Assembly (NCBI RefSeq): GCF_000018865.1 | Contig: NC_010175.1 | Location: 2,046,001 to 2,110,000 of the forward strand | Source of the DNA: Chloroflexus aurantiacus J-10-fl | Lineage (GTDB): Bacteria; Chloroflexota; Chloroflexia; Chloroflexales; Chloroflexaceae | Length of the DNA stretch: 64,000 nt | Reading direction: 5' to 3' | In this document: in pieces, positions 49,475 to 58,148 of the stretch | Layout of the letters: each line of letters begins with the position of its first letter | Numbering within the stretch: the stretch's first letter is position 1 | Translations under genes and position numbers: made by a program | Notes under the pieces: model-generated | Told to the model about the DNA's origin: nothing | The model's database searches: none | Seen by the model: only the letters and a program-made list of their open reading frames with translations

Positions 49475-49528
49475 TGACGCCCGGGTGGGAGCATGAACAG
49501 TGCCCACCCGCTCGTCTGGAGAAATCCC

Positions 49529-50822
49529 ATGAGTCGAACGCGCAATTCTGGTCGTGATCCGTATGCCTGCTCGTTCTGTGGGCGCGGACAGGATGAAGTA
49601 CAACGCCTGATCGCTGGCCCTGGTAACGTCTTTATCTGCGACGAATGTGTTGCGCTTTGCAGCGCCATCATTGCCGAAGAGAGCGATCAGAAGGCACCAA
49701 ACGCCCGTCGCAGTACCCCTCCAGGCCCGACCCGTTTACCCACCCCTCGTAAACTGCGCGAACGACTCGACCAGTACGTGATCGGGCAGGATCGGGCAAA
49801 GATTGCGCTGGCGGTAGCGGTTTACAATCACTACAAGCGAGTACGGGCCGGTGCCAGGATCGATGATGTTGAGATCAGTAAGAGTAATATCTTACTGATC
49901 GGGCCAACCGGTAGTGGTAAGACGTTGCTGGCGCAAACAATGGCGCGTTTGCTCGATGTACCTTTCGCGATTGCCGATGCCACCGCTCTCACCGAAGCCG
50001 GGTATGTTGGCGAGGATGTGGAAAATATTCTGCTTCGCCTGATACAGGCTGCTGATGGTGATCTGGAACGAGCACAAACCGGCATTATCTATATCGACGA
50101 GATTGACAAAATTAATTGCTCGTAAGGCTGATAACCCCTCGATCACGCGCGATGTCTCTGGCGAGGGGGTCCAGCAGGCGCTACTCAAAATCCTGGAAGG
50201 AGGCGTTGCCCACGTCCCACCCCTCCCCGGACGTAAACATCCGCAACAAGAGTATATCCCGTTTGACACCACAAATGTGCTCTTTATCTGTGGCGGTGCG
50301 TTTGAGGGGATCACCAAAATTATTGCCAAACGGCTGCGAGGAAAACAATTAATCGGCTTTGGCAGCAATCCGGTCAATCCGGTTGAAGAAGAAGGTGCGT
50401 TACTGGCTCAGATCACACCTGATGATCTGATGCACTTTGGCTTCATCCCGGAGTTCGTCGGTCGCCTGCCGGTGATTGTTGCGCTCGAACCGCTCAGCCG
50501 CGAAGCCATGCTGCGCATCCTGACCGAACCGCGTAACGCGATTATCAAGCAGTATCAAAAGCTCTTCGCTCTTGATCACTGTGAATTGGAATTTACACCT
50601 GACAGCCTGGAAGCGATTGTTGATCGCGCGATGGCTGCCCGCACCGGTGCCCGTGCTCTGCGGAGCATTGTGGAAGAGGTGCTGCTCGATGTCATGTTTG
50701 AATTACCATCGCAAGAACACATCGGGCGCTGCATCGTTACGGCGGAAGTCATTCAAGGTCGCGGGCGTCCGATCCTGGTGCCGCGTGCCGATTACCGTCG
50801 TCGGCTTGATGAAGCAGTATAA
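49529..50822 (+). pseudogene. clpX: ClpX unfoldase gene with a 4 bp frameshifting duplication
   Basis: The protein starts [18 protein letters not shown] at 49,529. It has the N-terminal C4 zinc finger, Walker A GPTGSGKT (residues 125-132) and Walker B IIYIDEID. Right after DKI the sequence has AATT twice (ATTAATT, 50,111-50,117), so the frame runs to a stop at 50,123 (198 residues). The rest ([29 protein letters not shown]...[15 protein letters not shown]...[18 protein letters not shown]) continues in the other frame to 50,822. Without the duplication it would be a normal 429-residue ClpX. A +1 shift at this point would also restore the protein with one extra Ile. It may be a real mutation or a sequence error. 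Confidence 0.9.
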
Positions 50823-52432: not shown

Positions 52433-53548
52433 ATGCTAACCATCCTTGCCATCTCAGGCACATTTCTGATTGCCTTTGCAATCACTGCGCTGCTTGTCCC
52501 ACCACTTATCACCCTGGCTCGCCGTGAGGGATGGGTTGCCAACCCCGGCCCGCGCCATGTGCATCGCGAGCCGACGCCGGTTGTGGGTGGGCTGGCGATG
52601 ATTGCCGGTCTGGTTGGGGCAATCGTACTGAGCGCAGGTTTCGAGCAGATCGATCCGGCATTACGCCGTTCGGCGTTTGAGCAGTTACGCATTGGCCTGT
52701 TGCTGATCGGTATCTCAATCATCGCTCTGGTCAGCTTCTTTGATGATCTCTACGATCTCCCGGCTTTACCGCGTTTGGGTGTGCATATTATTGCCGCATT
52801 GATTGCGGTAGGACCGTATCTGTGGGATCACACACTCTACCCCGACGTGCTCGGTCAACCGACTGAAGCGCGAGGGATTATTCTCACCGCGTTTAACTTT
52901 CCCTTTGTTGATCAGATTCATCTGCATAACCTCAGCCCGTGGCTGGCAATTGCAGCTACGGTGCTTTGGATTGTCGGCATGCAAAACATGGTGAACTGGA
53001 TCGACGGTCTTGACGGCCTGGCTGCCGGAGTGACTTTTATTGCGGGTATGGTGCTGGCCATTCATACCCTCACCCTCGATCCACCGCAACTGACAGTAGC
53101 CCTCTTGCCATTAGCCCTCAGCGGTGCCTGTGCGGCATTTCTCCTTTTCAATACGCATCCGGCCCGCATCTTTATGGGTGATGTCGGCGCCATGACCATC
53201 GGGTACACGCTCGGGATTTGTGCGATTATCGGTGGCGCCAAACTGGCAACGGCCCTGCTCGTGATGGGAGTGCCCCTGGTCGATATGGCCTGGTTGATCC
53301 TTTCCCGCACCCTGCGCGGTCGTTCTGCTGCTCAGGCGGGGCGCGATCATCTTCATCACCGTCTGCTCGACCTGGGGCTAAACCAGCGTCAGGTTGTTGG
53401 TTGCTACTACGCATTAAGCATTGCGTTCGGCTCGATTGGCCTGTTCGACTTCTTCACACCGTTGTTCAAGCTTATCGCATTACTCGTTCTGGGTGGATCG
53501 ATTTTGATCGTGCTCTTCTTCCTGCAACCCAAAACCCGGATAGCCTGA
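52433..53548 (+). CDS. WecA/MraY-family undecaprenyl-phosphate sugar-1-phosphate transferase
   Basis: 371 residues with about 10 membrane helices. Family motifs: HVHREPTPVVGGLAM, SFFDDLYDLPALPRLGVHI (Asp-Asp), MVNWIDGLDGLAAGVTFIAGM (catalytic Asp region), ARIFMGDVGAMTIGYTLG and GRDHLHHRLLDLGL (basic His motif). It transfers a sugar phosphate, commonly GlcNAc-1-phosphate, from UDP-sugar onto the lipid carrier. The HHRLLDLG loop and the preceding pattern fit the WecA branch better than MraY. It provides a second initiating enzyme besides that at 22,106. Confidence 0.9.
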   Translation: MLTILAISGTFLIAFAITALLVPPLITLARREGWVANPGPRHVHREPTPVVGGLAMIAGLVGAIVLSAGFEQIDPALRRSAFEQLRIGLLLIGISIIALVSFFDDLYDLPALPRLGVHIIAALIAVGPYLWDHTLYPDVLGQPTEARGIILTAFNFPFVDQIHLHNLSPWLAIAATVLWIVGMQNMVNWIDGLDGLAAGVTFIAGMVLAIHTLTLDPPQLTVALLPLALSGACAAFLLFNTHPARIFMGDVGAMTIGYTLGICAIIGGAKLATALLVMGVPLVDMAWLILSRTLRGRSAAQAGRDHLHHRLLDLGLNQRQVVGCYYALSIAFGSIGLFDFFTPLFKLIALLVLGGSILIVLFFLQPKTRIA

Positions 53549-53563
53549 GCCGGACAGAAGGTA

Positions 53564-54997
53564 TTATAGGGGAACGATCTCTTCCACTGGAGCGAGGCGG
53601 AGATTCCCAATCGGACAGGCAGTCACACAGGCCAGATCAGTGTACCCAAAGCACAGATCACACTTATCGGCGCGGTGAGTTGGGGTTGTCGGAGTCAGGG
53701 GAATGGACGGCCGTACCCGTTGCTGCAAACGACGAAAGAGTTCCCAGAGCGGACCGGTAGAGTGCCTGGTACGCGGCACCGAAGTTACGGCATCGTAAGG
53801 GCACGCACTCACACATTCACCACAACCGGTACAGCGGTTAGTGATGCGCAGGGCACCGGTATCAACACGCTCGATAGCATCTTCAGGACAGACCTCGACA
53901 CATTCGGCACCTACACTACACTGTCGGCAATGGTCGAGTACATCGAAGCGATCTATCGGGGTGCCATTGAGATGAAGACGTGCGTGACCGTGGCGGGTAG
54001 CACAACCGGTTTCACATAACCGACAACCAGGCGGACAACGCGCCGGGTCGCGTACCAGGACGTAGGGAGCGCGCAGCAGACCGTGATTGACGGCCATCTC
54101 GATATCACGGGCACGGGCTGCATCACTGCGCACTGCGGAGAGATGTTTGAGTCGTCGCTCGGCAATAGCGCGCAAATCGGCCTCAAGCGCCGGGTATTGT
54201 TGCAGCAGCCGGTAGAAATCGGTACCGGGCAACACCAACAGATCGGTCGTTGTTAACGTTCGTGCATTAGCCCGATGCGTATCTCCGGTTAACAACGAAA
54301 TTTCACCAAACAGATCACCTTCGCTTAGACTGGCAATTGTCTGACCATTATGCTCGATAACGACCTGACCACTTTCAATGAGGTAGAGCGAGTCGGCTGG
54401 TTCACCCTGCCTGACCACGAGTGTACCCCGTGGAACGTGACGGGGTTGCAAACGCGAGGCAATGGCAATTCGCTCTAACGGCAGCAACTGACCCAAGACC
54501 GGCATCCGGGCCAGCGTTGCCTCGATCATCCGTCGGCGATACACCTGGCGGAGCGCCGTGGTCAGCAAGGGGAGTGAGGCCAGATCATCACGCAGCGTTG
54601 CAATCTCAATCTGCAACAGATAGCAGGCCGTTTGGGTGAGCGCACTCATATGGCGAAAGAACTTACCAAAGAGTGGCCCTTCACCGAAACAATCGCCTCG
54701 CCCTAATATTCCCATCAAGACCTCGTGACCATCCTTGTCACGTAGTCGTAGCTGTAATGAACCGCGTAGCAGAAAGAAGAGGTAACGAAAACCGCGTCGT
54801 TGGCCTATGACTGTCGCGCCAGCAGGGAAGGCGCGGAACACACCGCGCTCGTACAAGATTGACAATTCAGTTGGAGAAACGCCCCGCAGACAATCGAGCG
54901 CCGCCAGCGCAGCAATCGCCTCTTGCCGGCGCTGTTGATGCTGAGCAGCACGTATCTGATCGAGATGATTGTGCAGGGGGCGCTTCAACGACGACAT
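53564..54997 (-). CDS. Ferredoxin with two cyclic-nucleotide-binding domains
   Basis: 477 residues. Two cNMP-binding domains (about residues 35-150 and 160-290) include GRGDCFGEGPLFGKFF and LSEGDLFGEISLLTGDTHRANARTLT, the latter with the phosphate-binding cassette. The C-terminal third binds iron-sulfur clusters: CPPGCRLCETGC, CRQCSVGAECVEVCPEDAI, CTGCGECVSACPYDA and CDLCFGYTDLACVTACP. This joins a small-molecule sensor to an electron carrier. It is divergent, 116 bp apart, from the aldehyde oxidoreductase gene, suggesting it serves or controls that enzyme. No DNA-binding domain was seen. Confidence 0.85.
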   Translation of the reverse strand: MSSLKRPLHNHLDQIRAAQHQQRRQEAIAALAALDCLRGVSPTELSILYERGVFRAFPAGATVIGQRRGFRYLFFLLRGSLQLRLRDKDGHEVLMGILGRGDCFGEGPLFGKFFRHMSALTQTACYLLQIEIATLRDDLASLPLLTTALRQVYRRRMIEATLARMPVLGQLLPLERIAIASRLQPRHVPRGTLVVRQGEPADSLYLIESGQVVIEHNGQTIASLSEGDLFGEISLLTGDTHRANARTLTTTDLLVLPGTDFYRLLQQYPALEADLRAIAERRLKHLSAVRSDAARARDIEMAVNHGLLRAPYVLVRDPARCPPGCRLCETGCATRHGHARLHLNGTPIDRFDVLDHCRQCSVGAECVEVCPEDAIERVDTGALRITNRCTGCGECVSACPYDAVTSVPRTRHSTGPLWELFRRLQQRVRPSIPLTPTTPTHRADKCDLCFGYTDLACVTACPIGNLRLAPVEEIVPL

Positions 54998-55072
54998 ATG
55001 CAGCTCTGCGGTACAATACAGGGGTGAAGAATTATTGAGCTACATTGTACCATACTGATCGTTCAAGAGCGG

Positions 55073-55078
55073 TATAAT
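55073..55078 (+). promoter_or_regulatory. -10 element in the divergent AOR/ferredoxin region
   Basis: TATAAT at 55,073-55,078, 36 bases before the AOR start. The 116 bp between the divergent genes must hold both promoters. No clear -35 box or operator was recognised. Confidence 0.45.
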
Positions 55079-55113
55079 AGAACGGCGAAAATCGCACCAT
55101 ACAGGATAATCGC

Positions 55114-56907
55114 ATGCCGTTGCGTAGTCTTACCGTTGATCTTGCTCGCGGCCACGCCCGCCAGACCTTACCCGATGAAGTCGAACGAGACTACCTCGGA
55201 GGTCGTGGCGCCATTGCGTGGTTACTCTGGCACCAGCTCGAACCCGACACACCACCACTGTCGGCAGACAACCTTCTGATCTTTGCAGCCGGCCCACTAG
55301 CCGGAAGTGCGGTGTTTGCCACGGGAGGCTTTACGGTCGGTACCCGTTCACCACTCACCGGCGGCATCGGCTACGGCTGGGCACCGGGGCATTGGGGTGC
55401 CGCCCTACGGCGGAATGGGATTGATGTGCTGGTGATTCGTGGCGAAGCACCCGACTGGTGCTACCTGCTTATTGATGGCGACACTGTGCGGCTACGTTCG
55501 GCTCGCCATCTGATCGGACGTGATACGGTAGCCACAACTGCCGCCCTCAGTCAGGAGTTAGGCAGTGACGTGCGGATTCTGGCAATCGGGCCGGCCGGTG
55601 AAGCGGGTGTTGCATATGCCAGTATTGTCGCGGAAGGCCAGTATCTGGTTGAACCGGCCGGTACCGGCGCTGTCATGGCCGACAAAAAGCTCAAGGCGAT
55701 TGTCGTGCGGGATCGTGCACCGTTACCGGCAGTCGATCCAGCCCGTGTACAAAGTGTTCTCCAATCGATCCGTCAACGCGGCGAGCAAAACCAGACGGCA
55801 AATGCAATTCGGACAATTGGAAGTGCTGGACTCCTGCCGGCAGCGATTAAACTCGGAGCGTTGACCAGTCGTGATGCGCGGGTGCCGGCTGACGGTGTCG
55901 CGATTGCTCGCATGTTTAGCGACATTGCCCGGCGGGGAGGCAGGCTGGAGCGCGGGTGTGCACAATGTCCGTTGCCCTGTTACATAGACTTGCGCACGAA
56001 GAGCGGCGAGACCCATCCGCTGCCGGGGCTGGAACTGATCGCCGGTTTTGCGGCACGGGTTGGCATCACCGACGCCGATGCAATGCTGGCGATTTCTGAC
56101 CGTTGTCTACGACTAGGGCTTGACCCGGCAGCAACCGCAGCGGCGATTACCTTCATGACCGAAGCACAAGACGAGGGATTGGTCCGTCAGCGTACCCTCA
56201 ACTGGGGTGATGGTGCAGCCGTCATTGCTGCCCTTGATCGTATCAGTCAGCGACAGGAGAAGCGTGACATTCTCTCCCTCGGTGTGGGCGAGATGCAAGA
56301 GGCCGTTTGGGGATCGGCAGCATTTGCTCCCCAGGTCAAAGGACTGGCAATGCCGGCCCTTGATCCACGAGCACTCACCGAGATCGGGCTGGCAATGGCA
56401 ACTAGCCCAATCGGGGGCGATTATCGCTATGCCATGGCGTTTGAAGAGCTGGTCACCGACCCACCGGCCTGGCTGCCGCCACCAGCCAGCGGTCCGCGCG
56501 AAAGCGAAGGCAAGGCGTTACGGTTGATCTGGCACGAACGGTTTGCGGCTGCGCTTGATGCAAGTGGGTTTTGCCGGCGTCTCGGCCTGATGGCCTATCA
56601 GATTACACCCGGTGAATTGATTGCTCTCCTCGGTGCAGTCAGTGGTCGCACCATATCTGGCGCCGATCTGGTACGAATTGGGGAGCGGATCGTCACCCTC
56701 GACCGGCTCTTTACCCGTCGCTACGCCAGTAACAGTCAGGACACGCTTCCAGATCGTTACCTGCGCGAGGCATTGAGTAGTGGCCCAACTGCCGGCCACA
56801 CCCCACCGCTGGAACAGCTTCTGGCCGAATATTATGCCCGTCACGGCTGGGATGCTGCCGGCGATCCGACGCCGGCCCGACTGGTCGAGCTAGGCATAGC
56901 GGTATAA
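55114..56907 (+). CDS. Tungsten-dependent aldehyde ferredoxin oxidoreductase family protein
   Basis: 597 residues. The N-terminal AOR domain has YLGGRGAIAWLLWHQLEP and GFTVGTRSPLTGGIGYGWAPGHWGAALRRNGIDVLVIRGEAP. The 4Fe-4S ligands are C282, C285 and C289 (CAQCPLPC) and C487 in DASGFCRRLGLMA. The pterin loop (IGPAGEAGVAYASIV...GTGAVMADKKLKAIVV) is conserved. Family members oxidise aldehydes to acids, passing electrons to ferredoxin. The cNMP-ferredoxin divergent to it is the evident electron partner. The ATG at 55,114 follows CAGGA at about 8 bases. Confidence 0.9.
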   Translation: MPLRSLTVDLARGHARQTLPDEVERDYLGGRGAIAWLLWHQLEPDTPPLSADNLLIFAAGPLAGSAVFATGGFTVGTRSPLTGGIGYGWAPGHWGAALRRNGIDVLVIRGEAPDWCYLLIDGDTVRLRSARHLIGRDTVATTAALSQELGSDVRILAIGPAGEAGVAYASIVAEGQYLVEPAGTGAVMADKKLKAIVVRDRAPLPAVDPARVQSVLQSIRQRGEQNQTANAIRTIGSAGLLPAAIKLGALTSRDARVPADGVAIARMFSDIARRGGRLERGCAQCPLPCYIDLRTKSGETHPLPGLELIAGFAARVGITDADAMLAISDRCLRLGLDPAATAAAITFMTEAQDEGLVRQRTLNWGDGAAVIAALDRISQRQEKRDILSLGVGEMQEAVWGSAAFAPQVKGLAMPALDPRALTEIGLAMATSPIGGDYRYAMAFEELVTDPPAWLPPPASGPRESEGKALRLIWHERFAAALDASGFCRRLGLMAYQITPGELIALLGAVSGRTISGADLVRIGERIVTLDRLFTRRYASNSQDTLPDRYLREALSSGPTAGHTPPLEQLLAEYYARHGWDAAGDPTPARLVELGIAV

Positions 56908-56982
56908 GAGCATCGTTTCGCACGCCGGTGACATCCGATACAGGCAGGAAACGAAAGCCATACAACCTTCAGGCATGCAACG

Positions 56983-57010
56983 GGGCGAGTATGAACTCGC
57001 CCTCATTGTT
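56983..57010 (+). terminator. Hairpin between AOR and proB
   Basis: A perfect 8 bp stem GGGCGAGT / ACTCGCCC with loop ATGA, followed by TCATTGTT. It lies 75 bases after the AOR stop and 32 before the proB start. It could terminate the AOR transcript or act as a leader structure for proB. Confidence 0.6.
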
Positions 57011-57041
57011 ACAAAGCAGCGAATGTAGAGCAGTACAGATT

Positions 57042-58148
57042 ATGAGCCGATTCGTTGTCAAACTAGGTACAAGCGTCTTAACGGCCGGCACAGATCGCCT
57101 CCATCGCCCTTACTTTGTCGAACTGGCCCGCCAAATCGTTCGTCTGAAAGATGCCGGTCACGAAGTCGTCCTTGTCTCATCAGGGGCTGTTGCCGCAGGC
57201 AAAGAACGCCTTGGTGTCAATCCTCATCACCGCAGCAATATTCCCCTGAAGCAGGTCTTTGCTGCGGTCGGTCAGAGTCGCCTGATGCACATTTACGAAC
57301 AAATCTTTGAGTTGTACGGTTTACAGGTTGCGCAAGCCCTGCTCACCCGTGACGACCTGCGCGACCGACGGCGTTACCTCAATGCCCGTAATACGCTCAC
57401 CCTTTGCCTGGAGCAGGGTATCGTGCCAATCATCAATGAAAACGATGCTGTCGTCACTGCCGAGATTCGAGTGGGCGACAACGACAACCTCTCAGCACTG
57501 GTGGCCGGCTTGATCGACGCTGACCTGCTCTTAATTTTGACCGACATTGATGGGGTGTACAGCGCCGATCCACGCAGTGATCCAAACGCGGAACTGATCC
57601 GCGAAATACCAGTTATTGACGAACGTGTCTGGGCGATAGCCGGTGGCAGCGGTACCCATCGTGGCACCGGCGGCATGCAGACGAAGATTCAGGCTGCCGA
57701 TCTGGCCACCCGTTCAGGCGTAGCTGTGGTGATTGCAGCCGGCCACGAGCCAGATGTGATTGTACGGGTGGCGAATGGTGAACGTATCGGAACCTTCTTC
57801 CCGGCTACCACAACTCACCCCGATGCGCGACAGCGGTGGATTCTGGCCGAAACAGTTCGTCATTCGCGCATTGTGGTGGATGAAGGCGCAACGACCGCGC
57901 TGACCCGACACGGCAAGAGTCTGCTGGCCGCGGGTATCTGCGAGGTGAGTGGTGAGTTTGACCGCGGGCAAACTGTGCGCATCTTTGCCCGCGATGGGCG
58001 CGAGATAGCGCGCGGCCTGACCCAGTACCGATCCAGCGATCTCCGTATGATTGCCGGTCTCCGTTCATCACAGATCGTTTCCGTTTTAGGGTATGATTAT
58101 GGGCCGGAGGTCGTCCATCGCGACGATATGGTTGTACTGAGTGGGTAG
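57042..58148 (+). CDS. proB: Glutamate 5-kinase
   Basis: 368 residues from ATG 57,042; the open frame reaches back to 56,928 but crosses the hairpin, and MSRFVVKLGTSVLT is the normal start. The amino acid kinase domain shows VLVSSGAVAAGKERLG, VPIINENDAVV, GDNDNLSALVAGLIDADLLLILTDIDGVYSADPR and GTGGMQTKIQAADLA. A C-terminal PUA domain begins near residue 280. It catalyses the first step of proline synthesis. No proA is in the window. Confidence 0.93.
   Translation: MSRFVVKLGTSVLTAGTDRLHRPYFVELARQIVRLKDAGHEVVLVSSGAVAAGKERLGVNPHHRSNIPLKQVFAAVGQSRLMHIYEQIFELYGLQVAQALLTRDDLRDRRRYLNARNTLTLCLEQGIVPIINENDAVVTAEIRVGDNDNLSALVAGLIDADLLLILTDIDGVYSADPRSDPNAELIREIPVIDERVWAIAGGSGTHRGTGGMQTKIQAADLATRSGVAVVIAAGHEPDVIVRVANGERIGTFFPATTTHPDARQRWILAETVRHSRIVVDEGATTALTRHGKSLLAAGICEVSGEFDRGQTVRIFARDGREIARGLTQYRSSDLRMIAGLRSSQIVSVLGYDYGPEVVHRDDMVVLSG

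Follow-up and report, generated by a model that had tools for sequence, protein, structure and literature searches.

A 64,000-nucleotide stretch of the Chloroflexus aurantiacus J-10-fl genome (NC_010175.1, positions 2,046,001 to 2,110,000; hereafter the window, with coordinates counted from its first letter) contains two divergent genes. One codes for a ferredoxin-type protein with two N-terminal cyclic nucleotide-binding (CNB) domains, P0001, and the other for a large subunit of the aldehyde oxidoreductase (AOR)/WOR family, P0002. The reading we favour, to which we give a probability of roughly 40%, is that P0001 is a CNB-gated electron wire of the WorS/AorA type, coupled in Chloroflexaceae to a remodelled WOR. 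It builds on features read from sequence, namely the domain make-up, 16 conserved cysteines, a canonical first and an altered second CNB domain, the head-to-head arrangement kept in one family and the remodelled site of the enzyme; from these we infer cluster occupancy, pairing, electron direction, ligand and gating. P0001 would thus be an electron-transfer subunit with four [4Fe-4S] clusters and two N-terminal CNB domains, which in Chloroflexaceae would work with the AOR-family enzyme encoded head-to-head with it. Electrons would leave the tungsten- or molybdenum-bispterin site via the enzyme's own cluster and then pass through the four ferredoxin clusters to another acceptor. Docking of the ferredoxin or passage of electrons would change with the ligand state of the first CNB domain (CNB1), the ligand most likely being a cyclic nucleotide, and the second (CNB2) would have turned structural or bind another ligand. 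As far as we know, the subunits that transfer electrons in tungsten and molybdenum enzymes have been regarded as wires that carry no sensor.

P0001 combines two CNB domains with a four-cluster ferredoxin module

An earlier note on this DNA, made from the letters alone, had described a protein with two cyclic nucleotide-binding domains and several Fe-S motifs that shares a 116 bp region with a divergent AOR-family gene. A check of the open reading frames (ORFs) confirmed the coordinates, the strands and the gap, and a Pfam scan of P0001 found two PF00027 stretches (whole-protein E 1e-38) together with 4Fe-4S families whose best stretches lie between residues 355 and 464. The two genes and the parts of P0001 are as follows.

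53564-54997, minus strand: P0001, tandem-CNB four-cluster ferredoxin protein, 477 amino acids (68 orthologues, AlphaFold2 model)
55114-56907, plus strand: P0002, AOR/WOR-family large subunit, 597 amino acids, with a remodelled active site (Pfam, alignments)
54998-55113, no strand: intergenic region, 116 bp, with facing promoter-like elements (8 Chloroflexus aligned, plus 15 further linked loci)
54587-54835, minus strand: CNB1 (PF00027 match) with canonical Glu106 and Arg115 (domain search, alignment)
54641-54688, minus strand: phosphate-binding cassette of CNB1, residues 104-119, FGEGPLFGKFFRHMSA (aligned without gaps to CRP-like chains of mycobacteria and corynebacteria)
54194-54442, minus strand: CNB2 (PF00027 match) with Glu232 and, in place of the phosphate Arg, His241 (domain search, alignment)
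54263-54310, minus strand: CNB2 cassette, residues 230-245, FGEISLLTGDTHRANA (alignment, ortholog counts)
53567-54085, minus strand: four-cluster ferredoxin module, residues 305-477, WorS/AorA/HycB type (sequence and fold matches)
54002-54037, minus strand: Fe-S motif 1, C-x3-C-x2-C-x3-C (motif and ortholog alignment, as for the next three)
53888-53929, minus strand: Fe-S motif 2, C-x2-C-x5-C-x3-CP
53801-53833, minus strand: Fe-S motif 3, C-x2-C-x2-C-x3-CP
53615-53662, minus strand: Fe-S motif 4, C-x2-C-x7-C-x3-CP

We surveyed 150 genomes of the class, 68 of which bear the ferredoxin in orthologous form, including G104 and G143, whose copies are in broken pieces; 17 further genomes matched the ferredoxin query with CNB-domain stretches only and were not counted. 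Family labels are inferred (f1, Chloroflexaceae-like; f2, Herpetosiphon-like; f3, which includes Roseiflexus; further f4 and f8). The 16 cluster cysteines of P0001 (C321/325/328/332, C357/360/366/370, C389/392/395/399 and C446/449/457/461) are conserved: in the 68-row alignment, from which the repeats L002, L223 and L224 were dropped and in which some rows are broken or cut copies, each position is Cys in 64-67 orthologues, the remainder being gaps and four single substitutions. In motif 1 the first gap is one residue longer than in the usual pattern. Together with the domains and cysteines of P0002 described below, this evidence is far beyond chance for both genes.

The Pfam scan detected no helix-turn-helix (HTH), kinase-related, catalytic or other output domain in P0001, which sets it apart from the Crp/Fnr regulators. 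The missing catalytic domain would suit a redox-sensing signal protein, in which the Fe-S module senses and the CNB part relays to another protein or serves as a nucleotide sink. We consider such a role very unlikely, however, as a row of four clusters in the HycB/WorS order resembles a wire rather than a sensor and neither an HTH nor any other output domain was found by Pfam.

The AlphaFold2 model of whole P0001 has a mean pLDDT of 85.8 and a pTM of 0.74. Its Foldseek lists, in which the absence of a fold carries no meaning, are filled by CNB domains, the top matches being the tandem CNB fold of PKA regulatory and CRP-type proteins. The ferredoxin module was therefore modelled alone, at lower quality (mean pLDDT 74.7, pTM 0.60). 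By sequence, the best solved match of the module is HycB4 of HDCR (2.7e-11), and it also matches the Fe-S subunits of tungsten AORs (9mqx_E, 1.1e-9; 8c0z_C, which is AorA, 2.1e-6; 6x6u_B of WOR5, 3.6e-5). When the Foldseek candidates for the module model were re-aligned with VIA, 9mqx_G came first (Z 9.8, root-mean-square deviation 4.2, 131 aligned) and 8c0z_C second (Z 9.1, deviation 3.6, 127 aligned), followed by formate hydrogenlyase 7z0s_B (Z 8.6) and HDCR 7qv7_B (Z 8.4), both within about 1 Z unit of 8c0z_C. Since the solved relatives include AOR Fe-S subunits as well as HycB-type ones, electron transfer, the predicted role of the module, is well supported, and a partnership with the neighbour in one family is plausible.

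P0002 belongs to an AOR-family branch with an altered active site

P0002 matches PF01314 (E 2.9e-76) and PF02730 (E 1.5e-57) in Pfam. Its AFOR_N and AFOR_C scores of 195 and 257.6 bits, against curated cut-offs of 29.8 and 27, place it in the superfamily, and among solved structures it matches 9mqx_D best, a chain of the complex that also contains the ferredoxin match 9mqx_E/G. The residues discussed here are as follows.

55957-55980, plus strand: C-x2-C-x3-C cluster ligands C282, C285 and C289 (alignment)
56572-56574, plus strand: Cys487, fourth cluster ligand, 39/39 (clade alignment)
56032-56034, plus strand: Glu307, equivalent to PfAOR Glu313, 39/39 (clade alignment)
56359-56361, plus strand: Leu416, aligned with PfAOR Tyr427; Leu in 35 and Ile in 4 of 39 (clade alignment)
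56413-56427, plus strand: GGDYR (434-438) replacing GGCH/GACH, with Tyr437 at the PfAOR His448 position (alignments)

The clade counts cover 39 of the 51 genomes that bear an ortholog; repeat rows L189, L190, L197 and L198 were dropped, and 12 genomes, with fragments or loci that were not fetched, are unaligned. All four cluster cysteines are kept in P0002, as the earlier note had it, and C282, C285, C289 and C487 are Cys in 35, 37, 37 and 39 of the 39 clade members, respectively. The first three are missing, with the fourth kept, in G117 (L058) and G084 (L060), which belong to one genus, and in two f4 genomes the first cluster Cys is not aligned.

The second-shell residues of AOR, in PfAOR numbering, are Thr243, Glu313, Tyr427 and His448 (PMC12096430). 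Of these, the last three could be placed with confidence in our alignments. P0002 has AFOR_N and AFOR_C, the four cluster Cys and the Glu313 equivalent in common with AOR sensu stricto (PfAOR, 1aor). Unlike in that enzyme, the equivalents of Tyr312, Tyr427 and His448 are Leu, Leu and Tyr, the first being Leu, Ile or Val in the clade. Moreover, the five PDB chains compared have GGCH or GACH at the His448 motif, whereas the clade has its own GGDxR or PGDxR, with Asp436 and Arg438 invariant among the aligned members and Tyr in 29, Ala in 4, His in 3, Phe in 2 and Val in 1 at the His448 position. Of five more distant AORs (28-36% identity), all but one have GACH and, at position 427, a Tyr; the exception is L199 (36%), which lacks both. 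Because Tyr427 is lost in 39 of 39 members and His448 nearly so, the aldehyde metabolism assumed in the earlier note does not hold up well: aldehyde chemistry of P0002 is doubtful, and its substrate may be other than an aldehyde. Its metal, named as tungsten in that note, may be either tungsten or molybdenum. As judged from these alignments, the clade is a remodelled branch of the AOR family, and 'aldehyde oxidoreductase' serves only as the name of the family. In the WOR classification of 2026, a physiological role is defined for members of only five of 92 clades (PMC13328260).

As a separate observation, several Chloroflexus genomes (G050, G058, G066 and G119; e.g. L201) have one more AOR paralogue, with some 30% identity to P0002. 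The J-10-fl genome, a single contig of 5,258,541 bp, has one AOR match only.

The divergent pair is conserved within one family

The earlier note had proposed electron flow from the AOR-family enzyme to the carrier and a survey of the gene neighbourhood. For this survey, AOR orthologues were defined by at least 45% identity, and weaker paralogues were left out of the linkage table. The two genes are divergent and at most 1 kb apart, here called linked, in 26 of 36 f1 genomes, 0 of 8 in f2, 0 of 17 in f3, 0 of 6 in f4 and 0 of 1 in f8. They are therefore unlinked in most genomes overall (26 of the 68 ferredoxin genomes are linked), but not in f1. The type of carrier and the head-to-head linkage in f1 agree with the proposed flow; the linkage does not extend beyond f1, and a close AOR is not always encoded.

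An AOR ortholog is found in 50 of the 68 ferredoxin genomes, and in 24 of them it lies far away or on a different contig, some of the latter cases, such as G086 and G123, possibly being contig breaks. Eighteen ferredoxin genomes, several of them incomplete assemblies, have no AOR ortholog at the threshold; eight of these have a distant paralogue (about 28-33%) and ten no match at E 1e-10. The reverse case is G125 (82% completeness), where the AOR is present and the ferredoxin absent. At all 15 loci examined outside f1, no AOR was found in the 9.8-17 kb around the ferredoxin.

The neighbouring genes allow the linkage to be compared with that of an unrelated gene, for which we used the following one as a control outside the system.

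56928-58148, plus strand: ProB-like glutamate 5-kinase (AA_kinase and PUA), a conserved AOR neighbour

Of 28 f1 AOR genes, 25 have the ferredoxin and 21 have ProB within 1.5 kb, some of the misses of both being at contig ends. On the other side of the ferredoxin, a glycosyltransferase-4 gene is adjacent (1.5 kb) in one of seven other Chloroflexus. The divergent pair is a conserved unit, but its conservation exceeds that of a neighbour without an obvious tie only modestly at best.

Several of these results weigh against a dedicated pairing. None of the 32 ferredoxin genomes outside f1 has the gene linked to an AOR, and the 18 without a close AOR show that AOR is not the only possible partner of the carrier. 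The adjacency of ProB is nearly as conserved, and synteny at this locus may therefore carry no function; besides, divergent genes are not an operon. Finally, the Foldseek E-values for the module rank subunits of formate hydrogenlyase, HDCR and arsenate reductase above 9mqx, which comes fifth and sixth, and 8c0z_C is not among the best 50 Foldseek rows, from which it follows that the module is not specific to AOR. It is of the WorS/AorA/HycB type, and AOR specificity is not provable. AOR as the sole partner, as a general rule, was considered and rejected on account of the 18 genomes.

All this bears on the alternative that P0001 is a general redox carrier, found order-wide and serving several oxidoreductases, with the adjacency to AOR reflecting inherited synteny or co-regulation. 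We regard it as a serious candidate, albeit at clearly less than even odds. It is favoured by the excess of ferredoxin over AOR genomes, by the kept ProB adjacency and by a fold ranking in which formate and hydrogen enzyme subunits do well too. Moreover, the neighbours of the ferredoxin differ by family: in f4 they are FTCD and an enzyme of Cys/Met metabolism, PucC lies beside it in two Roseiflexus-like loci, and in G131 (L077:2966-5762) the ferredoxin follows a GlcF-like CCG/Fer4 protein. Against it stand the AOR partners among the solved relatives of the module and the unlinked AOR genes themselves: at 13 such loci in Chloroflexales, some on short contigs, we found neither the ferredoxin nor another ORF with C-x2-C-x2-C-x3-C. 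Ten neighbour proteins were scanned, nine of them from these 13 loci. The facing promoter-like elements between the genes, which are conserved, also count against a general carrier.

In two f1 genomes, G052 (L074:6206-14110) and G096 (L075), the ferredoxin adjoins a gene resembling 3-hydroxyisobutyrate dehydrogenase, and nearby is a protein that clusters with the GlcF-like one of G131.

The intergenic region holds the following elements.

55044-55049, minus strand: -10-like TACAAT toward the ferredoxin gene, within the 12-mer ATTGTACCATAC; invariant in 8/8 Chloroflexus; putative promoter
55073-55078, plus strand: -10-like TATAAT toward the AOR-like gene; invariant in 8/8 Chloroflexus; putative

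The two are 29 bp apart in the window. Both are exact, at 27-28 bp from each other, in five of 15 further linked loci, the others having variant or different sequences. No -35 element is recognisable in the intergenic region, and a sigma-70 scan of 53400-57100 gave one site, outside the intergenic region, where 1.7 were expected. The arrangement looks like facing or bidirectional promoters. No Rfam family reached its gathering score in the window. An inverted repeat, GGTACAAT...ATTGTACC, lies at 55010-55051 and has a second copy in the genome (G000:C1:2192139-2192186), a control pattern having none; as it is not exact in all eight Chloroflexus, we do not claim GGTACAAT/ATTGTACC as a shared operator.

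CNB1 keeps the canonical ligand residues and CNB2 does not

We then consider the cyclic-nucleotide sensing that the earlier note had ascribed to P0001. CNB1 aligns without gaps to CRP-like chains and keeps Glu106 and Arg115, in agreement with that proposal. CNB2 lacks the phosphate Arg: aligned to domain 2 of yeast Bcy1 and to Plasmodium PKA-R (the PKA regulatory subunit), it has His241 at the cassette Arg position, at which HMMER placed a gap when aligning some other repeats. The sensing proposal is thus compatible with CNB1 and not supported for CNB2, and cyclic-nucleotide control through CNB1 only is possible, as far as pocket residues can tell. The genome encodes 13 class III cyclase (PF00211) domain matches, 16 CNB matches and MoaC, an enzyme of pterin cofactor synthesis; the cyclase domains and MoaC make the cyclic nucleotide and the cofactor both plausible.

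Among the 68 orthologues, the CNB2 Arg position is His in 57, Ala in 6, Arg in 2 and another residue in 3, and one of the two Arg-bearing rows has a gap at the Glu. For CNB1, Glu is found in 54, Arg in 48 and both in 43. By family, the pair is kept in 32/36 of f1, 0/8 of f2, 4/17 of f3, 6/6 of f4 and 1/1 of f8. By linkage, it is kept in all 26 genomes with the linked genes, in 10 of the 24 with the AOR elsewhere and in 7 of the 18 without an AOR ortholog, that is, in 26/26 linked genomes versus 17/42 of all others. The f1 genomes with a broken pair (G052, G096, G137 and G104) all lack an AOR ortholog; G131 and G138, also f1 and without one, have it intact.

These raw counts are striking, yet once relatedness is allowed for they come down to few independent events, and we rejected the correlation of CNB1 with linkage. 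The pair needs five changes on a tree that has long branches which meet. Tested with independent pairs, the correlation is not significant. For linkage, CNB1 differs in no more than one of the independent pairs; for the presence of AOR, the pairs point both ways. Significance is out of reach for the sign test. These results, and the loss of the CNB2 phosphate Arg in 66 of the 68 orthologues, speak against the gating we propose.

Neither CNB domain need sense a cyclic nucleotide. They may instead be dimerisation or docking modules or bind another ligand, e.g. a nucleoside, which we hold to be somewhat unlikely and which is compatible with either electron-transfer reading. In its favour are the His that dominates in CNB2 and the uneven retention of the CNB1 pair, lost in all eight f2 genomes. 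There is also a precedent: in trypanosomatid PKA-R, polar residues replace the cassette Arg, and purine nucleosides are bound at nanomolar affinity (PMC10959531). The canonical Glu and Arg of CNB1, in the window and in most of f1, and the encoded cyclase domains argue for the cyclic nucleotide.

Related systems in other lineages and in the literature

P0001 has the 16-Cys four-cluster module in common with AorA and WorS (8c0z_C of Aromatoleum; 9mqx_E/G, from an electron-bifurcating tungsten AOR; 6x6u_B of PfWOR5), whose partner is an AOR-family large subunit, as is the neighbour here. Unlike them, it has two N-terminal CNB domains fused to the module, and its gene is divergent from that of the large subunit, with no shared operon. 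The C-terminal helix of AorA mediates filaments (PMC10413684); the C-terminus of the P0001 model, made without a partner, has only a four-residue helix (471-474). Class II WORs are defined by WorL and WorS, a small subunit with four [4Fe-4S] clusters whose gene is adjacent to worL (PMC13328260). To judge by its 16 Cys and its fold match to WorS/AorA, P0001 would be such a four-cluster subunit; its gene is adjacent but divergent in 26 of 36 f1 genomes and unlinked in the 32 others.

The HycB-type subunits of formate hydrogenlyase and HDCR (7z0s_B, 7qv7_A/B) have the same module and different partner enzymes; they are its best sequence and best Foldseek matches and near-tied in VIA score. To our knowledge, they have no CNB domains. 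With the PKA regulatory subunit and CRP-type proteins, P0001 shares the tandem CNB fold; it differs from them by having neither an HTH nor a kinase-related domain and by a second pocket without the phosphate Arg.

The same order of domains, CNB-CNB-16-Cys, is found in two proteobacterial proteins (L134 and L152; 26-28% identity over 448 and 289 columns), which lie next to multihaem-type genes and a membrane protein, not next to an AOR.

L134:2416-8053 and L152:4424-10365: proteobacterial clusters of a CNB-CNB-ferredoxin gene with a membrane-protein gene and genes of multihaem type

Upstream in L152 is a gene with a Cytochrome_C554 match, and the large gene downstream has matches to multihaem families; the corresponding flanking ORFs of L134 are rich in CxxCH motifs by eye. 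The membrane-type protein between them has a Ferric_reduct match below the cut-off in L134 (21.5 vs 28 bits) and no family in L152. In the class of G150, three of 369 genomes, the starting genome included, have a match at E 1e-40. The multihaem context supports an electron-transfer role of the architecture and weighs against an AOR-only function; these haem-protein neighbours are thus a further point for a general carrier.

A more far-reaching version of our proposal, which we think improbable, gives the two CNB domains different ligands, a cyclic nucleotide for CNB1 and another for CNB2 with its conserved His. Two signals would then converge on P0001 and gate the exit of electrons from an AOR-family enzyme of new chemistry, the same module gating multihaem electron flow elsewhere.

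Literature searches found no publication that combines the terms for CNB domain, ferredoxin, aldehyde oxidoreductase and tungsten, and, among the papers listed, none recognisable from its title or the opening of its abstract as describing P0001. The main text of PMC13328260 contains neither 'chlorofle' nor 'nucleotide-binding'. The WorS/AorA/HycB electron-transfer subunit is a known kind; the variant with CNB domains is new within the literature searched.

Elsewhere in the window, a clpX-like gene (49493-50822, plus strand) is broken into two frames that overlap. It has a 4-base stretch near 50112 that is lacking in seven copies from other Chloroflexus (identity 79-82% over about 140 bp), and the split may be a mutation, a strain trait or a sequencing error.

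Implications

The domain make-up of P0001 and its place head-to-head with P0002 suggest that in these green filamentous phototrophs a small signal molecule may control electron flow. If our reading is correct, a WorS-type wire with CNB domains would couple small-molecule signalling to redox flow directly, at the post-translational level. The remodelled enzyme clade marks a branch of the AOR family of uncertain chemistry.

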